From assembly GCF_007004665.1 (NCBI RefSeq), contig NZ_ML660056.1:186001-250000 (forward strand): DNA of 64,000 nucleotides, read 5' to 3'. Source of the DNA: Denitrobaculum tricleocarpae. GTDB lineage: Bacteria; Pseudomonadota; Alphaproteobacteria; Kiloniellales; Kiloniellaceae. The notes beneath the pieces were generated by a model. The model did no database searches. It saw only the letters and a list, made by a program, of their open reading frames with translations, and was not told the DNA's origin. Below are positions 26,203 through 58,764 of this stretch, one piece after another. A program made the position numbers and the translations under genes. How positions within the stretch are numbered: the first letter of the stretch is position 1; each line of letters begins with the position of its first letter.

Positions 26203-26466
26203 GGTGTGTCGCCAATTACGCCGCCGCACTGGTTGGGTCGCAATTGCGCGAGATTAAGAGCGAGAACGCAAAACATGTTGGGCATATTCAAGGATGAGCG
26301 ACGCGAGCTTGCGCAATTACTGCCCAATCCCTCTGGGACGGGGCGTTGTTTGCCATCGGCGTCGTCGCAGGCACCCTGTGTGGGACCAGCCACACGGCGC
26401 CACCCGCTCTTAACCGATGGGAAAATTCGACCCCAGCGCGATGATGTCCTAATTGGCAACAAACCC
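26202..26466. mobile_element. MITE-like element, copy 2 (265 bp, TA-flanked)
   Basis: The terminal inverted repeat is imperfect (16 of the first 19 positions), beginning GGGTGTGTCGCCAATTA. TA lies outside both ends (26200-26201 and 26467-26468). The first internal hairpin, 26233-26249 with 26311-26327, matches at 14 of 17 positions. The loop stretch ACATGTTGGGCATATTCAA and the segment from GTGTGGGACC to TAACCGATG closely match copy 1, while the stems differ. No transposase. It separates skp from lpxD. Confidence 0.82.
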
Positions 26467-26477
26467 TAAGGCGTAGC

Positions 26478-37824: not shown

Positions 37825-37826
37825 GT

Positions 37827-38117
37827 GTATAGTCCCACGGTGTGGTGGTATCACATTGAAGACCATCGATAAGGAAGCACTATGGGACAGGTACTACACG
37901 GCAGCGCCACTACGACTCATGCTGTCCGAGCTGCGATACAGCGATCGAAAGCTTCGGTCCAAGAGCTGAGCGAGCACTACGGCATCAACCCTAAGACGGT
38001 GCGGAAGTGGCGCAAGCGATCTTCTGTGGAGGATGGGCCGATGGGGCCGAAGGAGCGGGGCGGAAGCGGCGCGCGCGACATCCCCCCGCTTACTCTTCTT
38101 GGCGCTCCGGCAGTAAG
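37827..38117 (+). mobile_element. IS481-family insertion sequence remnant
   Basis: Between the comEC stop and lexA lies a fragment with the 5' end of an IS481-type transposase gene and about 55 bp of sequence before it. The rest of the element is gone. The left boundary is estimated from where comEC ends; the right is where the lexA-derived duplication begins. Confidence 0.65.
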
Positions 38118-38124
38118 TCAGTAG
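37882..38124 (+). pseudogene. Truncated IS481-family transposase
   Basis: Only the N-terminal helix-turn-helix survives. MGQVLHGSATTTHAVRAAIQ and LSEHYGINPKTVRKWRKR are the typical IS481 start and recognition helix. After about residue 58 (PMGPKE) the sequence departs from the family and stops at residue 80, so the DDE catalytic domain is lost. It cannot transpose by itself. Confidence 0.8.
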
Positions 38125-38148
38125 CGCCGCAAATCAGTAGCGCCGCAA
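38118..38148. repeat. Tandem duplication of the lexA 3' end
   Basis: TCAGTAGCGCCGCAA occurs at 38118-38132 and again at 38134-38148, a 16-bp period. The second copy contains the actual lexA stop codon and last codons; the first is a copy beside the IS remnant. It may be left over from the insertion or deletion event. Confidence 0.75.
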
Positions 38149-43631: not shown

Positions 43632-44990
43632 TTGGAAAGTGAAAGCCTGACGGTGGCTGGGAAAGCGAAAAAAAAGCAGGAGAAACAGCGAGCGTCAGGG
43701 CCTAGAGCCCTGTCCTGGCTTAAGATTTTGCTGCCTGCCCTGGCGCTGCCGGTCGTGGTGATCGGCGGGCTCTATGCCGGTGTGGTCCTGCTGGACGAGG
43801 CCGCAGAGCCGCCGGAACCGGAGGTTTCTCCGGCTGCTCCCGAGTCGCCGACCGAGTCTGCAGCGTCAAGTACGGCCGAACCGCAAACCGCTCTTGTGCC
43901 GCGGCCGCAGCGACCGGTCGAACCGCTCGATATGGACAAGCTGCGCATTACCGACACGGTCGTCAGCGACACGCGGGTCGAGATAGAAAAGCTTCCAGGT
44001 AACAGTCAATTAGACAGCGTTCCTCAAGAAAAAACTGCGGGGCCTGAAGTTGTCCAGACAAGTGAGCCGGATAAGGTTCCGTCACCTGTGGCTGGGCCTG
44101 AAACGCCCCCTGAACCACAGACCGAAATCGCCGCTATTGAAAGTCCTGCAACGTTACAGAACCCGGTAAAACCCGAAACCTCCGAAAACCAGGGTCAAGC
44201 GCAAGTTATCCCACCGTTATGGCTTAGAAATGCCACAGCCCCGAGAGCGAACCGGGGGCAACCCATGATCGCCGTGGTCATCGACGACATTGGCCCCAAT
44301 CTCCGCAACGCCCGCCGCTCGGTCACCTTGCCTGCGCCCCTGACGCTCGCCTTTCTGCCCTACGCCAATCATCTCGAGGATCTGACCACAAAGGCAAGCC
44401 AGGCCGGCCACGAACTCATGGTCCATATGCCCATGGAGCCGAAAGAGAGCAGCCAGAACCCCGGCGAAAACGCCCTGCTGACAGAATTGGGCCCCGAGGA
44501 GCTGAAGCGGCGCATCCGATGGAACCTGGAGCGCTTCTCCGGATACGTCGGGGTGAACAATCACATGGGCAGCAAATTCACCGGATCCGGGCCCGGCATG
44601 CGCCTGGTGATGAGTGAGCTCTCCAAGCGCGGCCTGCTGTTCCTGGATTCGCGCACAAATGCCCAGAGCCAGGCGGAGCAGGCGGCGGCGCTGTTCCGGG
44701 TGCCCTTTGCCCAGCGCGATATCTTCATCGACAACGACCACACGAATCCCGACGCGATCCGCGCCCAGCTCGCCAAGCTTGAGGAGCAGGCGCGCAGCCG
44801 CGGTTATGCTGTCGGCATCAGCCATCCCCATGACAAGACGCTCGAGGTCCTGGCCGAGTGGCTGCCCGAGGCCCGCAAACGCGGCTTTGCCCTGGTACCG
44901 ATCTCGGAGATCGTGAAACAGCGTCTGCAGCTTGCCCGGGCGGGCGCAGCGCAGGACCCAAATGCCGGGAGCAAGAGTGGCCAGCCCTGA
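43632..44990 (+). CDS. Divergent polysaccharide deacetylase family protein
   Basis: A 452-residue envelope protein of the YibQ-like divergent polysaccharide deacetylase family. A single membrane helix (about residues 29-55) anchors it; a Pro/Glu/Thr-rich linker (60-195) leads to the periplasmic domain. There, IAVVIDDIGPN, LPYANHLEDLTTKA, HMPMEPKE and NNHMGSKFT are the family motifs with the metal-binding Asp/His. The substrate is not known. The start is a TTG; GTG at 43653 is an alternative. Confidence 0.85.
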   Translation: MESESLTVAGKAKKKQEKQRASGPRALSWLKILLPALALPVVVIGGLYAGVVLLDEAAEPPEPEVSPAAPESPTESAASSTAEPQTALVPRPQRPVEPLDMDKLRITDTVVSDTRVEIEKLPGNSQLDSVPQEKTAGPEVVQTSEPDKVPSPVAGPETPPEPQTEIAAIESPATLQNPVKPETSENQGQAQVIPPLWLRNATAPRANRGQPMIAVVIDDIGPNLRNARRSVTLPAPLTLAFLPYANHLEDLTTKASQAGHELMVHMPMEPKESSQNPGENALLTELGPEELKRRIRWNLERFSGYVGVNNHMGSKFTGSGPGMRLVMSELSKRGLLFLDSRTNAQSQAEQAAALFRVPFAQRDIFIDNDHTNPDAIRAQLAKLEEQARSRGYAVGISHPHDKTLEVLAEWLPEARKRGFALVPISEIVKQRLQLARAGAAQDPNAGSKSGQP

Positions 44991-48798: not shown

Positions 48799-48921
48799 TC
48801 TGATCCCGTTTCTGACGAAAATCTATCAGGAAACAGGCTGCTGATCGCGACGTTTCACGGGCGCCGCGATCATTCTGTAACCTGTGACCGCTCGCTTCGA
48901 GCGAGGCCGCAGACCACGCGG

Positions 48922-52826: not shown

Positions 52827-53393
52827 GTGAGAAAAACACTCGTTTTCTTTGTTGATTTTGAAGAACAGATAGTGCGCGAACCAGAGTTACACATGCTGAA
52901 TCAGCCTCTGCATGCGATTAAGAAGTCCTCGCTCGGACCCGTCATCGCTCAGTCCTCACAATTCATTTCGCCTTTAATCGATGAAGCCTTCAATCATTGG
53001 CACGACCATAGAGGCGCGGACCATCTTCCGCGGCTCGCTCATCTCGTTTCCGAGCCTCCACCGGATTTTTGGCCTCACACGATCGTTTTGGATATTGTCG
53101 ATGACGACTATCTTGCGCGCTACGTCGGGCTGAAGTCCGCTCAAACCTACGGCGACGTAAGCGACAGTTACCTCTCGGAGCTTCCGTCGCCGCTGAAAGA
53201 GCGGGTCGCTGACTTGCTTGATACCTGCGCAGGGAAACAGGCGCCCATCTACGCGTTCTGGCCGAGAAGCGCTGTCAGGGGACAACCCTTTATCGGTGTG
53301 GAAGTCCTTTGCCTTCCCTGGTCAAAATCCGGCGACAGCCTCGATCATATGACCCTTGTAAACGTGAACGCCTACGGGAGCGCAATGATCTAG
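52827..53393 (+). CDS. PAS_5-like domain protein
   Basis: A 188-residue soluble protein with a GTG start. WHDHRGADHLPRLAHLVSEPPPDFWPHTIVLDIVDDDYLARYVGLK and the end EVLCLPWSKSGDSLDHMTLVNV follow the alphaproteobacterial PAS_5 (DUF1150-like neighbour) pattern of a stand-alone sensory PAS domain without an output domain. The match is by pattern only. No signal peptide. It lies alone between the PEP-CTERM gene and a repeat region. Confidence 0.6.
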   Translation: MRKTLVFFVDFEEQIVREPELHMLNQPLHAIKKSSLGPVIAQSSQFISPLIDEAFNHWHDHRGADHLPRLAHLVSEPPPDFWPHTIVLDIVDDDYLARYVGLKSAQTYGDVSDSYLSELPSPLKERVADLLDTCAGKQAPIYAFWPRSAVRGQPFIGVEVLCLPWSKSGDSLDHMTLVNVNAYGSAMI

Positions 53394-53421
53394 CGAATGG
53401 CTAGAAACAGCATGCGTCCTG

Positions 53422-53451
53422 TTATCGCGCGACCCCTTATCGCGCGACCCC
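53422..53451. repeat. Tandem 15-bp duplication
   Basis: TTATCGCGCGACCCC occurs twice without a gap (53422-53436 and 53437-53451), 29 bp after the PAS_5-like gene. No function is evident. Confidence 0.85.
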
Positions 53452-53489
53452 GTGCGTCCACCGATCCTGAACCGCGATAGAGCCGCCGC

Positions 53490-53684
53490 TCAGATCCGTT
53501 TGTGGCCGAAAGCCTGCATGGCTTTGTCGCGGTGCTGCAGCTCTTCTTTCCTGGATTCAACGGCATCAACCATGCGCAGCTTGCCGGTCCGGTCCCGGAC
53601 CCGTTTGAAGCGTTTCAGCTCTTTATCCTGCGCCTTCAGTTTGCTGCGCTCGCGCCCCGCCAGTCTTTGAAGATCTCCGGTCAT
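53490..53684 (-). CDS. Small basic hypothetical protein
   Basis: A possible 64-residue protein, very rich in Lys and Arg with a heptad-like helical pattern (KLKAQDKELKRFKRVRDR). I do not recognise it. GGGAGC lies about 9 bp before the ATG, which is the main support. It may equally be a chance frame. Confidence 0.35.
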   Translation of the reverse strand: MTGDLQRLAGRERSKLKAQDKELKRFKRVRDRTGKLRMVDAVESRKEELQHRDKAMQAFGHKRI

Positions 53685-53795
53685 CGGTCATGCTCCCAGA
53701 ATGGTTGCTCCATTTCCATAAAATACAGTCTACAGTAAGTGGCGTCAGATGCCTTGAGGCAAATCAAGGCCGGACAGGCGAGCTTGCCTCGCTCT

Positions 53796-53969
53796 GCAAC
53801 GATACTGTGCTGGTCATCTACAACGTTTCAGACATGAAGATCTGTAAGGTTTCAAGTTTGTCCGATCGTTGGAATCAAGGGATTCGTATCGTTTCAAGAC
53901 TATTCATTCTGCTACGTTACATATCGCGTAAATCGTGACGTTGCAGAACCAACCCCAGCCCGGTTGCAG
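53796..53969. repeat. 24-bp-period palindromic motif array 1
   Basis: Cores resembling GTAACGTTACAG begin at 53796, 53820, 53844, 53868 (weak), 53886, 53911, 53935 and 53958 (weak), so most steps are 23-25 bp. Good examples are ACAACGTTTCAG, GTAAGGTTTCAA and GTGACGTTGCAG. The core is a dyad and the 12 bp between cores vary. It lies upstream of the exported hydrolase gene, and array 2 lies downstream of the following acetyltransferase gene. Confidence 0.7.
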
Positions 53970-54124
53970 ATCGGGCGGCATTCCTGCCGTCTTCAATTGC
54001 ATCATTGCCAATTCCCGGGCAGGGGGCTGATCTGCTATAGCTCTCACGCCCGACAACCAACAGGCGCCATCAAAACCATGCCTTCATTCCTTTGCCCGCG
54101 CGCCTTCCTTCTGGCCGCCGCCCG

Positions 54125-55729
54125 GTGAGTTTCTCCTCCGGACCTTCCGGCCGGCGGCGCCTGCGCCGAGGTTCCTGGCTTCCCGCCATCCTGTCGGCCC
54201 TGCTGCTGATCGCCGGGTTCGCCAGCTATGTCGCCTTTTACAGTGCGGCGCCCACGGAGCCGGGCTTTCATGCGCAGGCCTGCTGGTTTGATACGGATAT
54301 CGTCGGCGATGCGGACTGCGGCACGCTTGTGGTCCGCGAAAACCGGCAAAGGCCGGACAGCCGCACGATCGGCCTGCCGATCGTTATTCTGAGAGCCCAG
54401 GGCGAAGAGGCGGAGAGGGGGCGGACGCGCGAGCCGATATTCTACCTCACCGGCGGTCCAGGAGACCGCTTTCCTTTCTCCAGCCAGCAGGACATGGATT
54501 CCTGGTCGCTCTGGCGCAAGGATTTTCCGCCCGAGCACGACCTCATCCTGGTCGGTCCGCGCGGCACGGGCAGGCATGCGGTAGACTTCGGCTGTCCCGA
54601 AATGCGCAAAGCGGCGATCAGCGCCGGGGCGCATAGGCCGGGCGAACCGCCGCCGGACAGCCGCGCGCTCGCGGTCGAAGCCGTCACCGCCTGCGCCCGG
54701 CGTTTGCAGTCCGAGGGCGTGGATCTGACGGCTTACAACAGCCGTGAAAGTGCCGCCGATATTGCCGAACTGCGTCAGGCGCTGGAAATCGAAACCGCAG
54801 TGCTTTACGGCGTTTCCTACGGGACGCGCTGGGCGCTGAGCATTCTGAGATACCATCCGGAGGGCATCGCGGCGGCTATTTTGGACGGTTTGGTGCCGCC
54901 CGAAGCCGCTGAAGGCCTGGAGGTCGCCGCCTTTTACCGTGAGAGTCTGCAGCAGGTCTTCGATGACTGTGCCGCGCACAGCGTTTGCCGGCATCAGTTC
55001 GGGGATGTCGAGCGGCGGTACGAGCGCCTGCGCGAAGGGCTGAAGGCGCGCCCGCTCAAACTTCCGCTCGAGAATTATCTCGATGGGGATGAACTGAGCG
55101 CTCTGGGGGACGCGGAGGGGCGCAGTATCAGCTTTGACGACACCTGGTTCGGCTGGCTGCTGTTCGACGCCATTATGGACCGGGATGTGCCGTTTCTGAT
55201 TCCGCTCCTGATCGATGACCTGGAACAGAAACGTTTTGCTACCCTGAACGCGCGCCTGCGCGAGAGCCTGCTGCTGATACTCGAATCCCAGGCCTACAAT
55301 TCCTGGGCCATCTATCTTTCCCATATCTGCCGCGATGAAGCCGCGTTCGAGACGCCCGAGGCTGTGGCCGCCGCAGCGCGGACGGCGGGTGACCTTGCCT
55401 TCATGGTCGAGGACTATGCGCCCAATTACCTCTGCGCCCTCTGGCCGTCCGGAAAAGCCGATCCGGTGGAAAACCAGCCGGTCAGGAGCGCTGTCCCCAC
55501 CTTGCTGCTGTCGGGCCGTTTCGATCCTCTGACTCCACCGGCTCTGGCCCAAAGGGCCGCCGCGCATCTCTCCAACAGCTACCTCTATACCCTGGCGGAG
55601 AAGGGTCATGGGGCGCTCTATGACAACGCCTGTGCCCAGCATCTGGTCCGAAGCTTTCTGAGAAGCTTTAAGCGCCCGACGCAAACCCGCTGCGAACCAC
55701 AAGATCTGGCGGTATCCGCCGGAAACTGA
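54125..55729 (+). CDS. Membrane-anchored alpha/beta hydrolase (TAP-like peptidase)
   Basis: About 534 residues: a basic N-terminus, one membrane helix (SWLPAILSALLLIAGFASYV), then an alpha/beta hydrolase resembling tripeptidyl aminopeptidases. The nucleophile Ser is in YGVSYGTRWAL, the acid in LSGRFDPLTPP and the His in EKGHGALYD; YLTGGPGDRFP forms the oxyanion region. The start is uncertain: GTG at 54125 overlaps the stop of a 16-codon leader frame (54078-54128), and a TTG lies at 54092. Confidence 0.85.
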   Translation: MSFSSGPSGRRRLRRGSWLPAILSALLLIAGFASYVAFYSAAPTEPGFHAQACWFDTDIVGDADCGTLVVRENRQRPDSRTIGLPIVILRAQGEEAERGRTREPIFYLTGGPGDRFPFSSQQDMDSWSLWRKDFPPEHDLILVGPRGTGRHAVDFGCPEMRKAAISAGAHRPGEPPPDSRALAVEAVTACARRLQSEGVDLTAYNSRESAADIAELRQALEIETAVLYGVSYGTRWALSILRYHPEGIAAAILDGLVPPEAAEGLEVAAFYRESLQQVFDDCAAHSVCRHQFGDVERRYERLREGLKARPLKLPLENYLDGDELSALGDAEGRSISFDDTWFGWLLFDAIMDRDVPFLIPLLIDDLEQKRFATLNARLRESLLLILESQAYNSWAIYLSHICRDEAAFETPEAVAAAARTAGDLAFMVEDYAPNYLCALWPSGKADPVENQPVRSAVPTLLLSGRFDPLTPPALAQRAAAHLSNSYLYTLAEKGHGALYDNACAQHLVRSFLRSFKRPTQTRCEPQDLAVSAGN

Positions 55730-55815
55730 GGCTATATACGGAACGTACGGGGGATAGCTGACGCTTACGAGTGATAGCTGAGAGCCGGCGCGTACGAGGA
55801 AAGGCGAGAGAGGCG

Positions 55816-56571
55816 ATGTCATTGGAAATCCGGCCGCTGTCCGAACGCGAACGGCTCCTGGTCCTGGATTGGCTGGAACGGGAAGAGGCGGCGCCGGACA
55901 GGGAATTCGCCGCGCAAAAAGACGCTCTTGCACGCGCAGAGGATGCCGGTGAGCTCTGGGGGCTCTTCGAAGACGCGGATCCGGTTGCCTTTCTGGCCGG
56001 CGGACTGCGCAAGGACGGGTTTTTGAGGGTGCGGGCCGATCGCCGGCGGCGGGGGTATGGCCGCAGGCTGGTCCGGCATCGGATCGACGCGCTGCGTGCC
56101 GATGACAGCTGCTGTCTGCTGGACATCCTATGCGAACCGGCGGACTCCATTCCCTTCTGGCGGAAGATGGGTTTTACCCTTTATGGCGGGTCCTGCGCCT
56201 TCAAACGCCTGGAGCGGCGCTTTGAGGTGCCCAGGGGCGCCGAAGCCATCGCTGTCAGGATCCGAAGCTTTCCTGATTTCGTCCTGCGGACGGGCGAGCT
56301 GGTGGAACCGCTCGACTCGTTCCGGCCGGATGCTGTGATTCTCCCCGGCGGCAATATCCAGCTGGCGGAACGGGTGATTTTTTTCGCCGGGCCGCTCAAC
56401 CGCCGCTACGACCTTGTGGTCATGATCGAGGTCGGCGGGCGGACTCTGCTGTTCGACCGGGTGAGCAGCGACGCCGCCTACGCGGTGGGAGTCAGCGAGG
56501 ATGGACAGGCGAACCACTTTCTGGACCGGATCAACGACCCGCCTCTGACCGAGATTCCTTCCCGGCGCTGA
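55816..56571 (+). CDS. GNAT-family N-acetyltransferase with C-terminal extension
   Basis: A 251-residue protein. Its first 140 residues form a GNAT domain (RADRRRRGYGRRLVRHRIDAL is motif A and PFWRKMGFTLYGG motif B). The remaining 110 residues (VEPLDSFRPDAVILPGGNIQ onward) are a separate domain that I do not recognise. The ATG at 55816 has GAGAGAGG just before it. It follows the hydrolase gene by 86 bp and is followed by the motif array. Confidence 0.75.
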   Translation: MSLEIRPLSERERLLVLDWLEREEAAPDREFAAQKDALARAEDAGELWGLFEDADPVAFLAGGLRKDGFLRVRADRRRRGYGRRLVRHRIDALRADDSCCLLDILCEPADSIPFWRKMGFTLYGGSCAFKRLERRFEVPRGAEAIAVRIRSFPDFVLRTGELVEPLDSFRPDAVILPGGNIQLAERVIFFAGPLNRRYDLVVMIEVGGRTLLFDRVSSDAAYAVGVSEDGQANHFLDRINDPPLTEIPSRR

Positions 56572-56621
56572 TGCCGAGTGATCAGCGTAGGGGAATGGCC
56601 AGTGTAGGGGGGTGGCAAGCT

Positions 56622-56891
56622 GTAACCTTTCAGATATGAGAATTCGTGACGTTACAGCGCCGCCGGTCGGTAACCTTGCCGGCCGGTCGACCTGTGACAT
56701 TGCTGTTCGCGGTCTCTCGAGCGTTTCAGCCCTATCGTAACGTTACAGAAGGGTGGAGCCGTAACGTTACAGGCACAAAAGGCTGAAAGGTTACAGATCG
56801 CGCTCTTCGTATCGATGCAAGTGGCTGAACAGCAACGTTTCAGCTGGTTCGGACTGCCGTCGCGAAGGATAGAAAAGTTGAAAGGTGACAG
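56622..56891. repeat. 24-bp-period palindromic motif array 2
   Basis: Twelve-base cores start at 56622, 56646, 56670, 56694, 56718, 56737, 56761, 56785, 56809 (weak), 56832, 56856 (weak) and 56880. All steps are 24 bp except one of 19 and one of 23. Two copies are exactly GTAACGTTACAG (56737 and 56761). The first core extended to 14 bp, CTGTAACCTTTCAG, is the exact reverse complement of the one at 56783-56796. The intervening 12 bp vary. It fills the space between two convergent genes. Confidence 0.85.
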
Positions 56892-56916
56892 CTTTGCGCC
56901 GGTCCGTTGGCGCCTA

Positions 56917-57561
56917 TCAGGTGACCGGTTCGACGCAGGTGTATTCACGCTGGTTGTTGTTTTCACCGGCGCCTTCCTTGATGTCATTGCCTGTATCGAT
57001 CTTCATCTTGAATTTGGCTTCTCCATCTTTCCAGGCGCCCTTTGAAAGCGGAAACTTCACGGTGCCCACAGCACCGGCCGCAAGCGGACCGAGCGGCTTG
57101 TTAACGGTCGAAGTGGTGGTCGGGCTCGTGCGCATCGTAACGCTGACAAAGCTGTTTCGGACCGGCTTGAGACCCTTGTTCCGGACGCCGACGACCACTT
57201 CACTGGCGAGGGCTGTGCTGCCTTGTTTGCCGCAGTAACCGGTCTTGGGCGCGCCCGGAAGCGGACCGCTCGGATAAGGCATGTGGAAGACCAGGTCCGG
57301 AAGAATTTCGATCACAGAGTTTCCCGGAGCTTTATTGCTGTTAGGTCCCCCATGCGGTTTGGGCTTGGTCGGCTTACCGAGTTTTCCGGATCGGGCCGGT
57401 CTACCGGGCTCCGCGGAGCCTCTGCCCTGTGACCCCACGTTCACGTGTGGCTTGGTGCGTTCGAACGTTTCTTTCGCGGCTTCCGCGGGCAGGGAATGAG
57501 TGAGTGCCGCGACCGAAACCACTCCGGCAACCATCAAGCATAACATATTGATTTTAATCAT
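56917..57561 (-). CDS. Secreted CARDB-like protein
   Basis: A 214-residue exported protein. A signal peptide (INMLCLMVAGVVSVAALTHS, cut near AEA) leads into a Pro/Gly/Lys-rich linker (40-85) and a C-terminal beta-sandwich resembling CARDB or other adhesion modules (EVVVGVRNKGLKPVRNSFVSVTMR, LGPLAAGAVGTVKFPL). Two Cys (YCGKQG and YTCVEP) may pair. The start at 57561 is used because the signal peptide begins there. Confidence 0.75.
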   Translation of the reverse strand: MIKINMLCLMVAGVVSVAALTHSLPAEAAKETFERTKPHVNVGSQGRGSAEPGRPARSGKLGKPTKPKPHGGPNSNKAPGNSVIEILPDLVFHMPYPSGPLPGAPKTGYCGKQGSTALASEVVVGVRNKGLKPVRNSFVSVTMRTSPTTTSTVNKPLGPLAAGAVGTVKFPLSKGAWKDGEAKFKMKIDTGNDIKEGAGENNNQREYTCVEPVT

Positions 57562-57841
57562 ATAACTTAACCTCTTTATCTGCTTTATCGCTGGGCGCCG
57601 CTTTCCTTGGAACCGGTGGATTTCACGTGAAAGACCACCGTTTCTCATCGCTTGAGACGCGCTTCTTCAGAGAAAGGTTCAAAAGAAATGCCGGACAGGT
57701 CAGAATGGAGAGGGCAGAATGAAGAGGGGTGTGACGCCGCGGAGGCTCTGAACCCGGTCAGCGCTCTGTATCGTTACAGTGTTCTATCCGCTGGCAAACA
57801 GCAGGGTCTGGCTCAACGAACGCTTACAGATCGGTCGAGTG
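57562..57841. other. Divergent region with isolated motif copies
   Basis: Between the CARDB-like gene and ppk2, single cores of the 24-bp-array motif occur: GTGACGCCGCGG (57731), CTGTATCGTTACAG (57766-57779, a near-perfect dyad) and GAACGCTTACAG (57818). They are not evenly spaced. They lie just upstream of the PPK2 start and could act as operators. Confidence 0.5.
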
Positions 57842-58645
57842 ATGTCGAAAAACGGAAAGCACCACAAGGCAAAGCGTCTCGCAAAGATCGAAATGGACCG
57901 CGAACTGGGACGTGACGCTTACGAGGCGCGTCTGGAGAAGCTGCAAACCAAGCTGCGGCGGATCCAGCAGGCTTACCTTCACAGCGGCGATAGCGCGGTG
58001 ATTGCCTTTGAGGGCTGGGACGCGGCGGGCAAGGGCGGCACGATCCGGCGCATGTCCGCGGTGCTCGATCCGCGCGGCTTCAAGGTCTGGCCGATTGCCG
58101 CCCCCAAGCCCCATGATCTGGAGCGGCACTATCTCTCGCGCTTTTGGGAACGCCTGCCGGCGCGCGGCGGCCTCGCGGTTTTCGACCGGACCTGGTACGG
58201 GCGGGTCCTGGTGGAGCGCGTCGAGGGCTTTGCGGCCCACAAGGAATGGAAGCGGGCCTATGACGAGATCAATGACTTCGAGCGCCTGATGATCGATAAC
58301 GGCACGCGCCTCGTGAAGCTCTTCATGCACATCACGCCCGATGTGCAGTTGCAACGTTTCGAGGCCCGTCTGCAGGATCCCATGAAGCGCTGGAAACTCA
58401 GTATTGAGGATTTTCGTAACCGGGAAAGCCGTCCGGCTTACGAAAAGGCCATCGATCAGATGTTCGAACGGACCTCCACCGACCAGGCGCCCTGGCATGT
58501 GATCCCGGCAAACGACAAGAAATATGCGCGGATCTCGGCCATGGAGATCATTTCGGATCACCTCGCCAAGGGTGTCGACCTCAGGCCGCGTCCGCTGGAC
58601 GACCGGGTTCGTGAGGAGGCCGAGCGAATTTTCGGGCTCTACTGA
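57842..58645 (+). CDS. ppk2: Polyphosphate kinase 2 family protein
   Basis: A 267-residue PPK2 enzyme, which transfers phosphate between polyphosphate and nucleotides. Walker A is FEGWDAAGKGGTIRRM (about residue 58), with DRTWYGRVLVERVEGF as Walker B and lid region, and HITPDVQLQRFEAR. At this length it is a single-domain form. ATG 57842 is favoured; an earlier start would read through the motif copy. Confidence 0.92.
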   Translation: MSKNGKHHKAKRLAKIEMDRELGRDAYEARLEKLQTKLRRIQQAYLHSGDSAVIAFEGWDAAGKGGTIRRMSAVLDPRGFKVWPIAAPKPHDLERHYLSRFWERLPARGGLAVFDRTWYGRVLVERVEGFAAHKEWKRAYDEINDFERLMIDNGTRLVKLFMHITPDVQLQRFEARLQDPMKRWKLSIEDFRNRESRPAYEKAIDQMFERTSTDQAPWHVIPANDKKYARISAMEIISDHLAKGVDLRPRPLDDRVREEAERIFGLY

Positions 58646-58700
58646 TTAGGACGGTGATCAGGGCGGGCCTTGCCTGGACTCCGCTCTAAATTTTACTGCT

Positions 58701-58764
58701 GGATCAGATTCACAAGGTTGATAGATCGCCTTCGGCGATTCCATCTAAACTTGACCAGATCTAG
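58701..58764. repeat. Dispersed palindromic repeat, type 2 (copy 2)
   Basis: GGATCAGATT at the left pairs with the region ending CAGATCTAG on the right, and AGATCGCC-TTC-GGCGATT forms the inner hairpin (58733-58750). The core matches the copy at 6658-6719. It overlaps the stop codon of the GFA gene, whose TAG lies in the last bases. Confidence 0.8.

Follow-up and report, generated by a model that had tools for sequence, protein, structure and literature searches.

Two arrays of LacI-type operator motifs on a 24-bp step in Denitrobaculum tricleocarpae: candidate cooperative binding sites for a repressor–dioxygenase fusion

Introduction

Regulators of sugar metabolism in the LacI family (LacI, PurR and CcpA type) usually act through one to three operators per promoter. 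Plasmid centromeres such as sopC carry ten or so evenly spaced tandem sites for ParB or ParR. In datA and other DnaA-box clusters, as available summaries describe them, sites for one protein are gathered away from its main target. Engineered operator arrays (FROS) are the artificial counterpart: in the accessible part of the source, many operators of one regulator stand side by side (PMC5543585).

The locus described here combines features of these systems. It lies in a window of 64,000 nucleotides (the whole stretch of DNA that was analysed) of Denitrobaculum tricleocarpae and contains two arrays of a short palindromic motif, called A and B. Like LacI-, PurR- and CcpA-type operators, the motif is a short dyad with paired copies near regulator and transporter genes; unlike them, the arrays consist of ten and six copies spaced on a 24-bp lattice at a distance from the regulator gene. 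Even spacing is shared with sopC, but the motif matches a LacI operator and no near exact parS is present. Compared with datA, as far as those summaries go, the arrays differ in their LacI-type dyads, their strict step and their number. Unlike FROS, judged by the same accessible part, they are natural and kept across species. Titles and abstract openings searched for LacI arrays, DUF1479 and Kiloniellaceae describe no such array or fusion.

Architecture of the arrays

Array B occupies positions 56620–56891 and holds ten supported sites of the 14-bp dyad CTGTAACGTTACAG; like all dyad features below, its parts are given without a strand. The left cluster (56620–56705) consists of four 14-mers, at 56620, 56644, 56668 and 56692, with steps of 24, 24 and 24 bp. 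An inter-cluster gap (56706–56734) follows, across which the site-to-site step is 43 bp. The right cluster (56735–56843) has five sites, at 56735, 56759, 56783, 56807 and 56830 (steps 24, 24, 24, 23). One outlying last site (56878–56891) stands 48 bp further on, a distance that is 76 bp in a related genome, G002. In a model built from the arrays themselves, each of the ten sites scores at least 7.8. This model is circular, and significance was therefore taken from a second model trained on operators elsewhere.

The array stands where the original prediction placed it, and site matches and autocorrelation agree on this. The autocorrelation proposed with that prediction was run over 56610–56900 and reveals the 24-bp periodicity: among lags 5–60, the top lags are 48 (z 3.1) and 24 (z 2.9). 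The count and the step pattern need revision. About twelve cores had been claimed, of which ten registers hold a site. The register at 56716, in the gap, scores 1.6 and its counterparts in G002 and in a second relative, G003, score −18.7 and −9.2 (array model), so it is not conserved; 56854 scores −22.7 and is no site. Steps of 24 bp with one of 19 and one of 23 had been described. The 24-bp steps and the 23 are present, but the 19 depends on 56716; the true step at that point is 43 bp and is kept in three species. With the non-conserved 19-bp site dropped and the conserved central step of 43 bp in its place, the arrays are each seen to be bipartite.

The second array, A, was absent from the original prediction. 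It spans 53794–53946 and has six sites: three in a left cluster (53794–53855; sites 53794, 53818 and 53842) and three in a right cluster (53884–53946; sites 53884, 53909 and 53933). The step between its clusters is 42 bp in D. tricleocarpae and G002 and 67 bp in G003.

The motif and its frequency

The motif is commoner in the window than in shuffled sequence, which bears out a check set with the original prediction. Allowing up to three mismatches, CTGWAACNTTWCAG matches 63 times on the two strands together; 100 shuffles gave 20.9 ± 5.6 matches, with 37 as the highest count. The operator-only model gives a sharper measure. It was trained solely on sites at LacI genes elsewhere in the genome and in relatives, 22 in all. 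Left out of it were the G003 LacI-gene site L121:1118, which has a CC centre, a degenerate pair in G011, and all G002 sites, which are near-identical to those of D. tricleocarpae; the loci of G016, G018 and G020 were found later and are not among the 22. This model yields 18 window matches scoring at least 12, whereas 30 first-order simulations averaged 0.5 and none exceeded 2. Fourteen of the 18 are array sites, namely all six in array A and eight of the ten in array B, where 56692 reaches 8.0 and 56668 reaches 4.5. The remaining four lie at 44146, 46229, 57766 and 63536, and the first 43 kb of the window contain none of the 18. Among matches scoring at least 8, neighbour steps of up to 60 bp are 24 (seven times), 23, 25, 42, 43, 48 and 48.

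Array sites tend to be weaker than the operators on which the model was trained. They score 4.5–21.6, lower than the seven LacI-gene operators at 16.8–31.5. The dyad centre is CG in every one of the 22 modelled operators and in ten of the 16 array sites; the other six sites have CC/GG (56620, 56668, 56783, 56878 and 53842) or CA (56692). In the array model, the counterparts of 56692 in G002 and G003 reach 12.2 and 15.2.

Across the whole genome (6.44 Mb, 34 contigs), 18 sites are found with up to two mismatches, against 14 for a reversed control pattern, and clusters occur only at a LacI-family gene on contig C3 and around the arrays on C5. This distribution does not support a genome-wide nucleoid protein. 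Single sites in the wider region around the arrays were also considered as a cluster. Because several of these sites sit within long ORFs, one of which we take from its sequence to be dihydrolipoamide dehydrogenase-like, they were not counted.

The LacI-family regulator and its dioxygenase fusion

The genome's other motif cluster, C3:293974–294765, is flanked on one side by a divergently oriented LacI-family gene and on the other by a sugar-type ABC transporter (SBP_bac_1 plus two permeases); NCBIfam matches for these transporter and LacI proteins are all below cut-offs. The array sites share their dyad with this regulator's promoter, two of the 16 scoring below 12 in the operator-only model. 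Judged by this likeness, the array motif is the predicted operator of the LacI-family regulator encoded on C3. Nine genomes (D. tricleocarpae, here G000, with G001, G002, G003, G008, G012, G016, G018 and G020) carry upstream of the corresponding LacI gene an operator pair 137–143 bp apart that consists of CTGTAACGTTACAG or close variants, and G011 has a degenerate pair. Operator-like sites in the LacI–transporter intergenic region number seven, seven and ten in G000, G002 and G003 (L119, L120, L121), and LacI-gene operators number two each in G001, G008 and G012. Counts for G016, G018 and G020 are partial because their loci reach a few hundred bases upstream of LacI. In this family, the residue pair before TVSR in the helix–turn–helix (HTH) sets operator specificity. 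The pair is VT in the C3 LacI, and none of the other 13 LacI HTHs shares it.

The regulator has an unusual form. G000:C3:294805–297300 (L006:9806–12301) is a single open frame that encodes a complete LacI-family repressor followed by a C-terminal DUF1479/Gig2-like dioxygenase. Its dioxygenase part gives matches to solved structures of DUF1479/YbiU and GIG2, and the HxD region is preserved. The fusion, LacI-DUF1479, occurs in G000, G002 and G003, with open frames of 842–850 aa. LacI and dioxygenase are separate adjacent ORFs, the dioxygenase just downstream, in G001, G008, G016 and G018; in G012 and G020 separateness is judged from the lengths of the LacI ORFs (394 and 386 aa) and from the separate frame that the domain occupies. 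Among 387 genomes drawn from the class, the domain was matched in five, four of them over the cut-off, and the long fused frame appears only in G000. No genome outside the three fused ones was found to carry the arrays. All three belong to a single clade, in which fusion and arrays may each have had a single origin, and the association between them could be fortuitous.

Conservation among relatives

Searches returned three other genomes of the genus (G001, G002 and G003; four in all with G000). Both arrays occupy the same gene context in G000, G002 and G003, and G001 has neither. The spacing conservation expected by the original prediction thus holds in two relatives and has no array to act on in the third. 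In array B, the steps 24, 24, 24, 43, 24, 24, 24 are identical in the three species. Its left cluster has equivalents with the same steps at G002 L080:15525–15610 and G003 L082:18977–19062, and its right cluster retains all five registers in G002 and the first four in G003. Array A has steps of 24, 24, 42, 25, 24 in G000 and G002 and of 24, 24, 67, 24, 24 in G003; equivalents of its left cluster, again with the same steps, are at G002 L080:12695–12756 and G003 L082:15539–15600. A site-specific variant, GTGACGTTACAG, is kept at the second array B register in all three species.

The sequence between sites changes. In array B, 100 of 140 site letters are identical between G000 and G002 (ten registers, counted with the non-site 56716 and without 56878), against 25 of 84 spacer letters. 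In array A the figures are 84 of 98 register letters, which take in one register position that is no site, and 28 of 55 spacer letters. Sites and steps are thus preserved while spacers change, which fits candidate protein-binding sites held at a set distance, as originally proposed.

Wider searches used a strict pair pattern. With one mismatch it matched eight of 143 genomes, with matches inside arrays only in G000 and G002; its reversed control also matched 10 genomes. The pattern missed the arrays of G003, so its negatives are weak, and the absence of arrays in G012, G016, G018 and G020 is judged solely by it. In genome_contigs (84,980 species), the pair pattern returned 42 stretches, and the sole array among them by profile is G002's own contig.

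Gene neighbourhood

Array A lies on the upstream side of a small conserved basic ORF of 64 aa (53490–53684, minus strand; no Pfam match). Between the arrays are a gene for a TAP-like alpha/beta hydrolase (54092–55729, plus) and one for a GNAT acetyltransferase (55771–56571, plus; its true start may be 55816). Array B is followed by a CARDB-domain gene (56917–57648, minus) and the polyphosphate kinase 2 (PPK2) gene (57839–58645, plus). In G000 and G002 the genes flanking array B converge on it, and about 0.9 kb that includes CARDB separates it from PPK2. No match to CARDB was found in G003, where array B is directly upstream of PPK2 in the order small ORF, array A, putative 173-aa minus-strand ORF, hydrolase, GNAT, array B, two sites, PPK2. 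G001 has the small ORF (minus) next to PPK2 (plus), with no array, hydrolase or GNAT in between.

Single sites accompany PPK2. One strong site upstream of it (57766–57779) is identical in G002, where further sites lie 42–68 bp beyond the counterpart, and G003 has the two sites named above. In G000 and G002, where CARDB separates array B from PPK2, sites persist near PPK2. Since the two are adjacent in G003 and sites stay near PPK2 in the other species, array B is best read as a putative upstream region of PPK2. Array A is best read, likewise from its position, as a putative upstream region of the small ORF and/or the hydrolase–GNAT genes. No sigma-70-like promoter was found at 53380–58000, where 1.1 is expected in shuffles. 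At G002 L080:16709–16790, extra tandem sites about 13 bp apart precede PPK2; G000 has a single site there.

Other identities considered

Of the binders guessed at originally (a regulator, a partition protein or a nucleoid protein), the regulator fits, because the motif matches the predicted operator of a LacI-family regulator; the other two are not supported. Exact parS, TGTTTCACGTGAAACA, occurs only on contig C4 (two copies). The best parS on the arrays' own contig has one mismatch and is about 80 kb away (C5:323240), and a parS-like stretch beside array B (57619–57634), near the start of the CARDB gene, has three. A plasmid origin was rejected: matches fall at four places in three plasmid records, cover 10–14% of the query and have E 0.9. 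One of these weak matches lies under a gene annotated ‘stability/partitioning determinant’. A phage origin and a structured RNA were likewise rejected, there being no phage match and no Rfam match.

The unit was rightly called too short for CRISPR, since the dyads are variable 14-mers and the tandem and direct repeats reported for the window include no array of near-identical units of at least 20 bp separated by unique spacers of like length. A coding repeat was rejected as well: 43 bp is not divisible by 3, so that step breaks the frame; there is also no single open frame through all units, and array B spacers are near random. Among IMG/VR viral contigs, 36 stretches (L191–L226) were returned, 22 with a chain of at least three sites. 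Twenty of the 22 chains were rejected as like arrays, since they read as GNVT-like coding repeats in an open frame. Two viral stretches, L205 (12-bp steps) and L219 (steps 21 and 24), are not GNVT-like coding repeats.

Proposed function

The favoured interpretation, to which a probability of about 0.52 is given, is that arrays A and B would be cooperative multi-operator arrays of LacI-DUF1479 that regulate neighbouring genes. Each 14-bp dyad would serve as one dimer operator. Neighbouring dimers would sit 24 bp apart, or about 2.3 helical turns, in two blocks with a kept offset (four and five in B, three and three in A, plus the one B outlier). Cooperative binding would then build a long nucleoprotein assembly upstream of PPK2 at array B, with a similar assembly at array A upstream of the small ORF and/or the hydrolase–GNAT genes, and the named genes would respond sharply to the regulator's ligand. 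From sequence we infer that LacI binds the arrays, that it does so cooperatively and that it controls the named genes; the role is inferred more than the binder.

Cooperative regulation has to be weighed against a simpler use of the same sites. The arrays might act as a titration sink, soaking up LacI-DUF1479 and setting the free repressor at the transporter promoter, in which case the neighbours need not be regulated. The number of sites (16 over both arrays) would suit such a role, as would their scores, most of which are below those of the LacI-gene operators, and the convergent genes that flank array B in two of three species. Moreover, arrays are seen only in genomes that encode regulator and enzyme as a single protein, whose level may then be fixed by the need for the enzyme. 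A sink requires no exact 24-bp phase, yet the steps were kept while the spacers changed, and in G003 array B adjoins PPK2, with two more sites near the PPK2 start. Such strict spacing favours contact between adjacent dimers, and so cooperative regulation over a mere sink, which is considered unlikely. It is rather improbable that a different protein, another regulator or other protein with the same dyad, binds the arrays. Such a binder would be in keeping with G001, which has the LacI gene and its operators without an array, and with the six of 16 array sites that lack the CG centre; against it, a model trained on operators alone detects the arrays, and the VT residue pair is shared by none of the other 13 LacI HTHs, the comparison being within the LacI family.

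An architectural role is given slightly less credence still. LacI bound to A and B would bridge them and loop out the 2.7-kb hydrolase–GNAT segment, which the arrays flank, or would form a 139-bp loop inside each array. Site pairs 138–139 bp apart do occur in both arrays in all three species, close to the 137–143 bp of the LacI-gene pair. However, a 24-bp lattice with a 43-bp gap yields such a pair by chance about 30% of the time (a rough estimate), and G003 has the extra putative ORF between array A and the hydrolase. More speculatively, and with as little confidence as is placed in a different binder, the repressor–dioxygenase fusion might polymerise as a filament on co-evolved 24-bp arrays, so that the enzyme would be stored or switched on DNA.

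If LacI-DUF1479 occupies the arrays, they would make up a multi-operator lattice, both natural and selected, for a LacI-type regulator. They would provide a test case for spacing phase giving cooperativity and would show the fate of a regulon once its repressor joins an enzyme; fused and unfused relatives offer a ready comparison.

Divergence of the spacers

The spacers first looked hypervariable because four-fold sites in four nearby genes are 0.79–0.88 identical between G000 and G002 (CARDB, 0.67), and the C3 intergenic region has 0.86 identity. A control weakened the idea that the array B spacers are fast-evolving or hypermutated. Four convergent intergenic regions were compared in this genome pair; one is 0.95 identical and three are poorly alignable, namely the array B region (0.55), comEC/lexA (0.40) and PPK2/58761 (0.46). 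Near-random array B spacers may thus be ordinary for G000 and G002. The two other poorly alignable regions shrank, from 309 to 217 bp and from 115 to 48 bp, and the array B region went from 348 to 382 bp, the change lying outside the first ten registers. What is distinctive about array B, on this comparison, is the survival of sites and steps amid diverged DNA. A 24-bp rhythm kept while the surrounding DNA changes suggests a regulator that must align at a set distance.

Array A, which does not lie between convergent genes, falls outside this control. Its flanks are 0.82–0.83 identical between G000 and G002, and its spacers, identical at 28 of 55 letters, are more diverged than these, with a binomial probability of 3.5e-6 against 0.79. 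Shuffling of spacers between positions or strands was rejected: no cross-match is better than 8 of 10, a value found at the same register and surpassed by shuffles (up to 9).

Other differences between the two genomes were seen in the window. The two poorly alignable convergent regions without an array (37825–38133 and 58646–58760) are flanked by blocks about 91–94% identical. G002 carries about 4.5 kb absent from G000 at window positions 48850–48913. At 26203–26477, the window has 275 bp where G002 has 8 bp, and 26249–26433 matches elsewhere in G002 at 77%, perhaps as a dispersed repeat.
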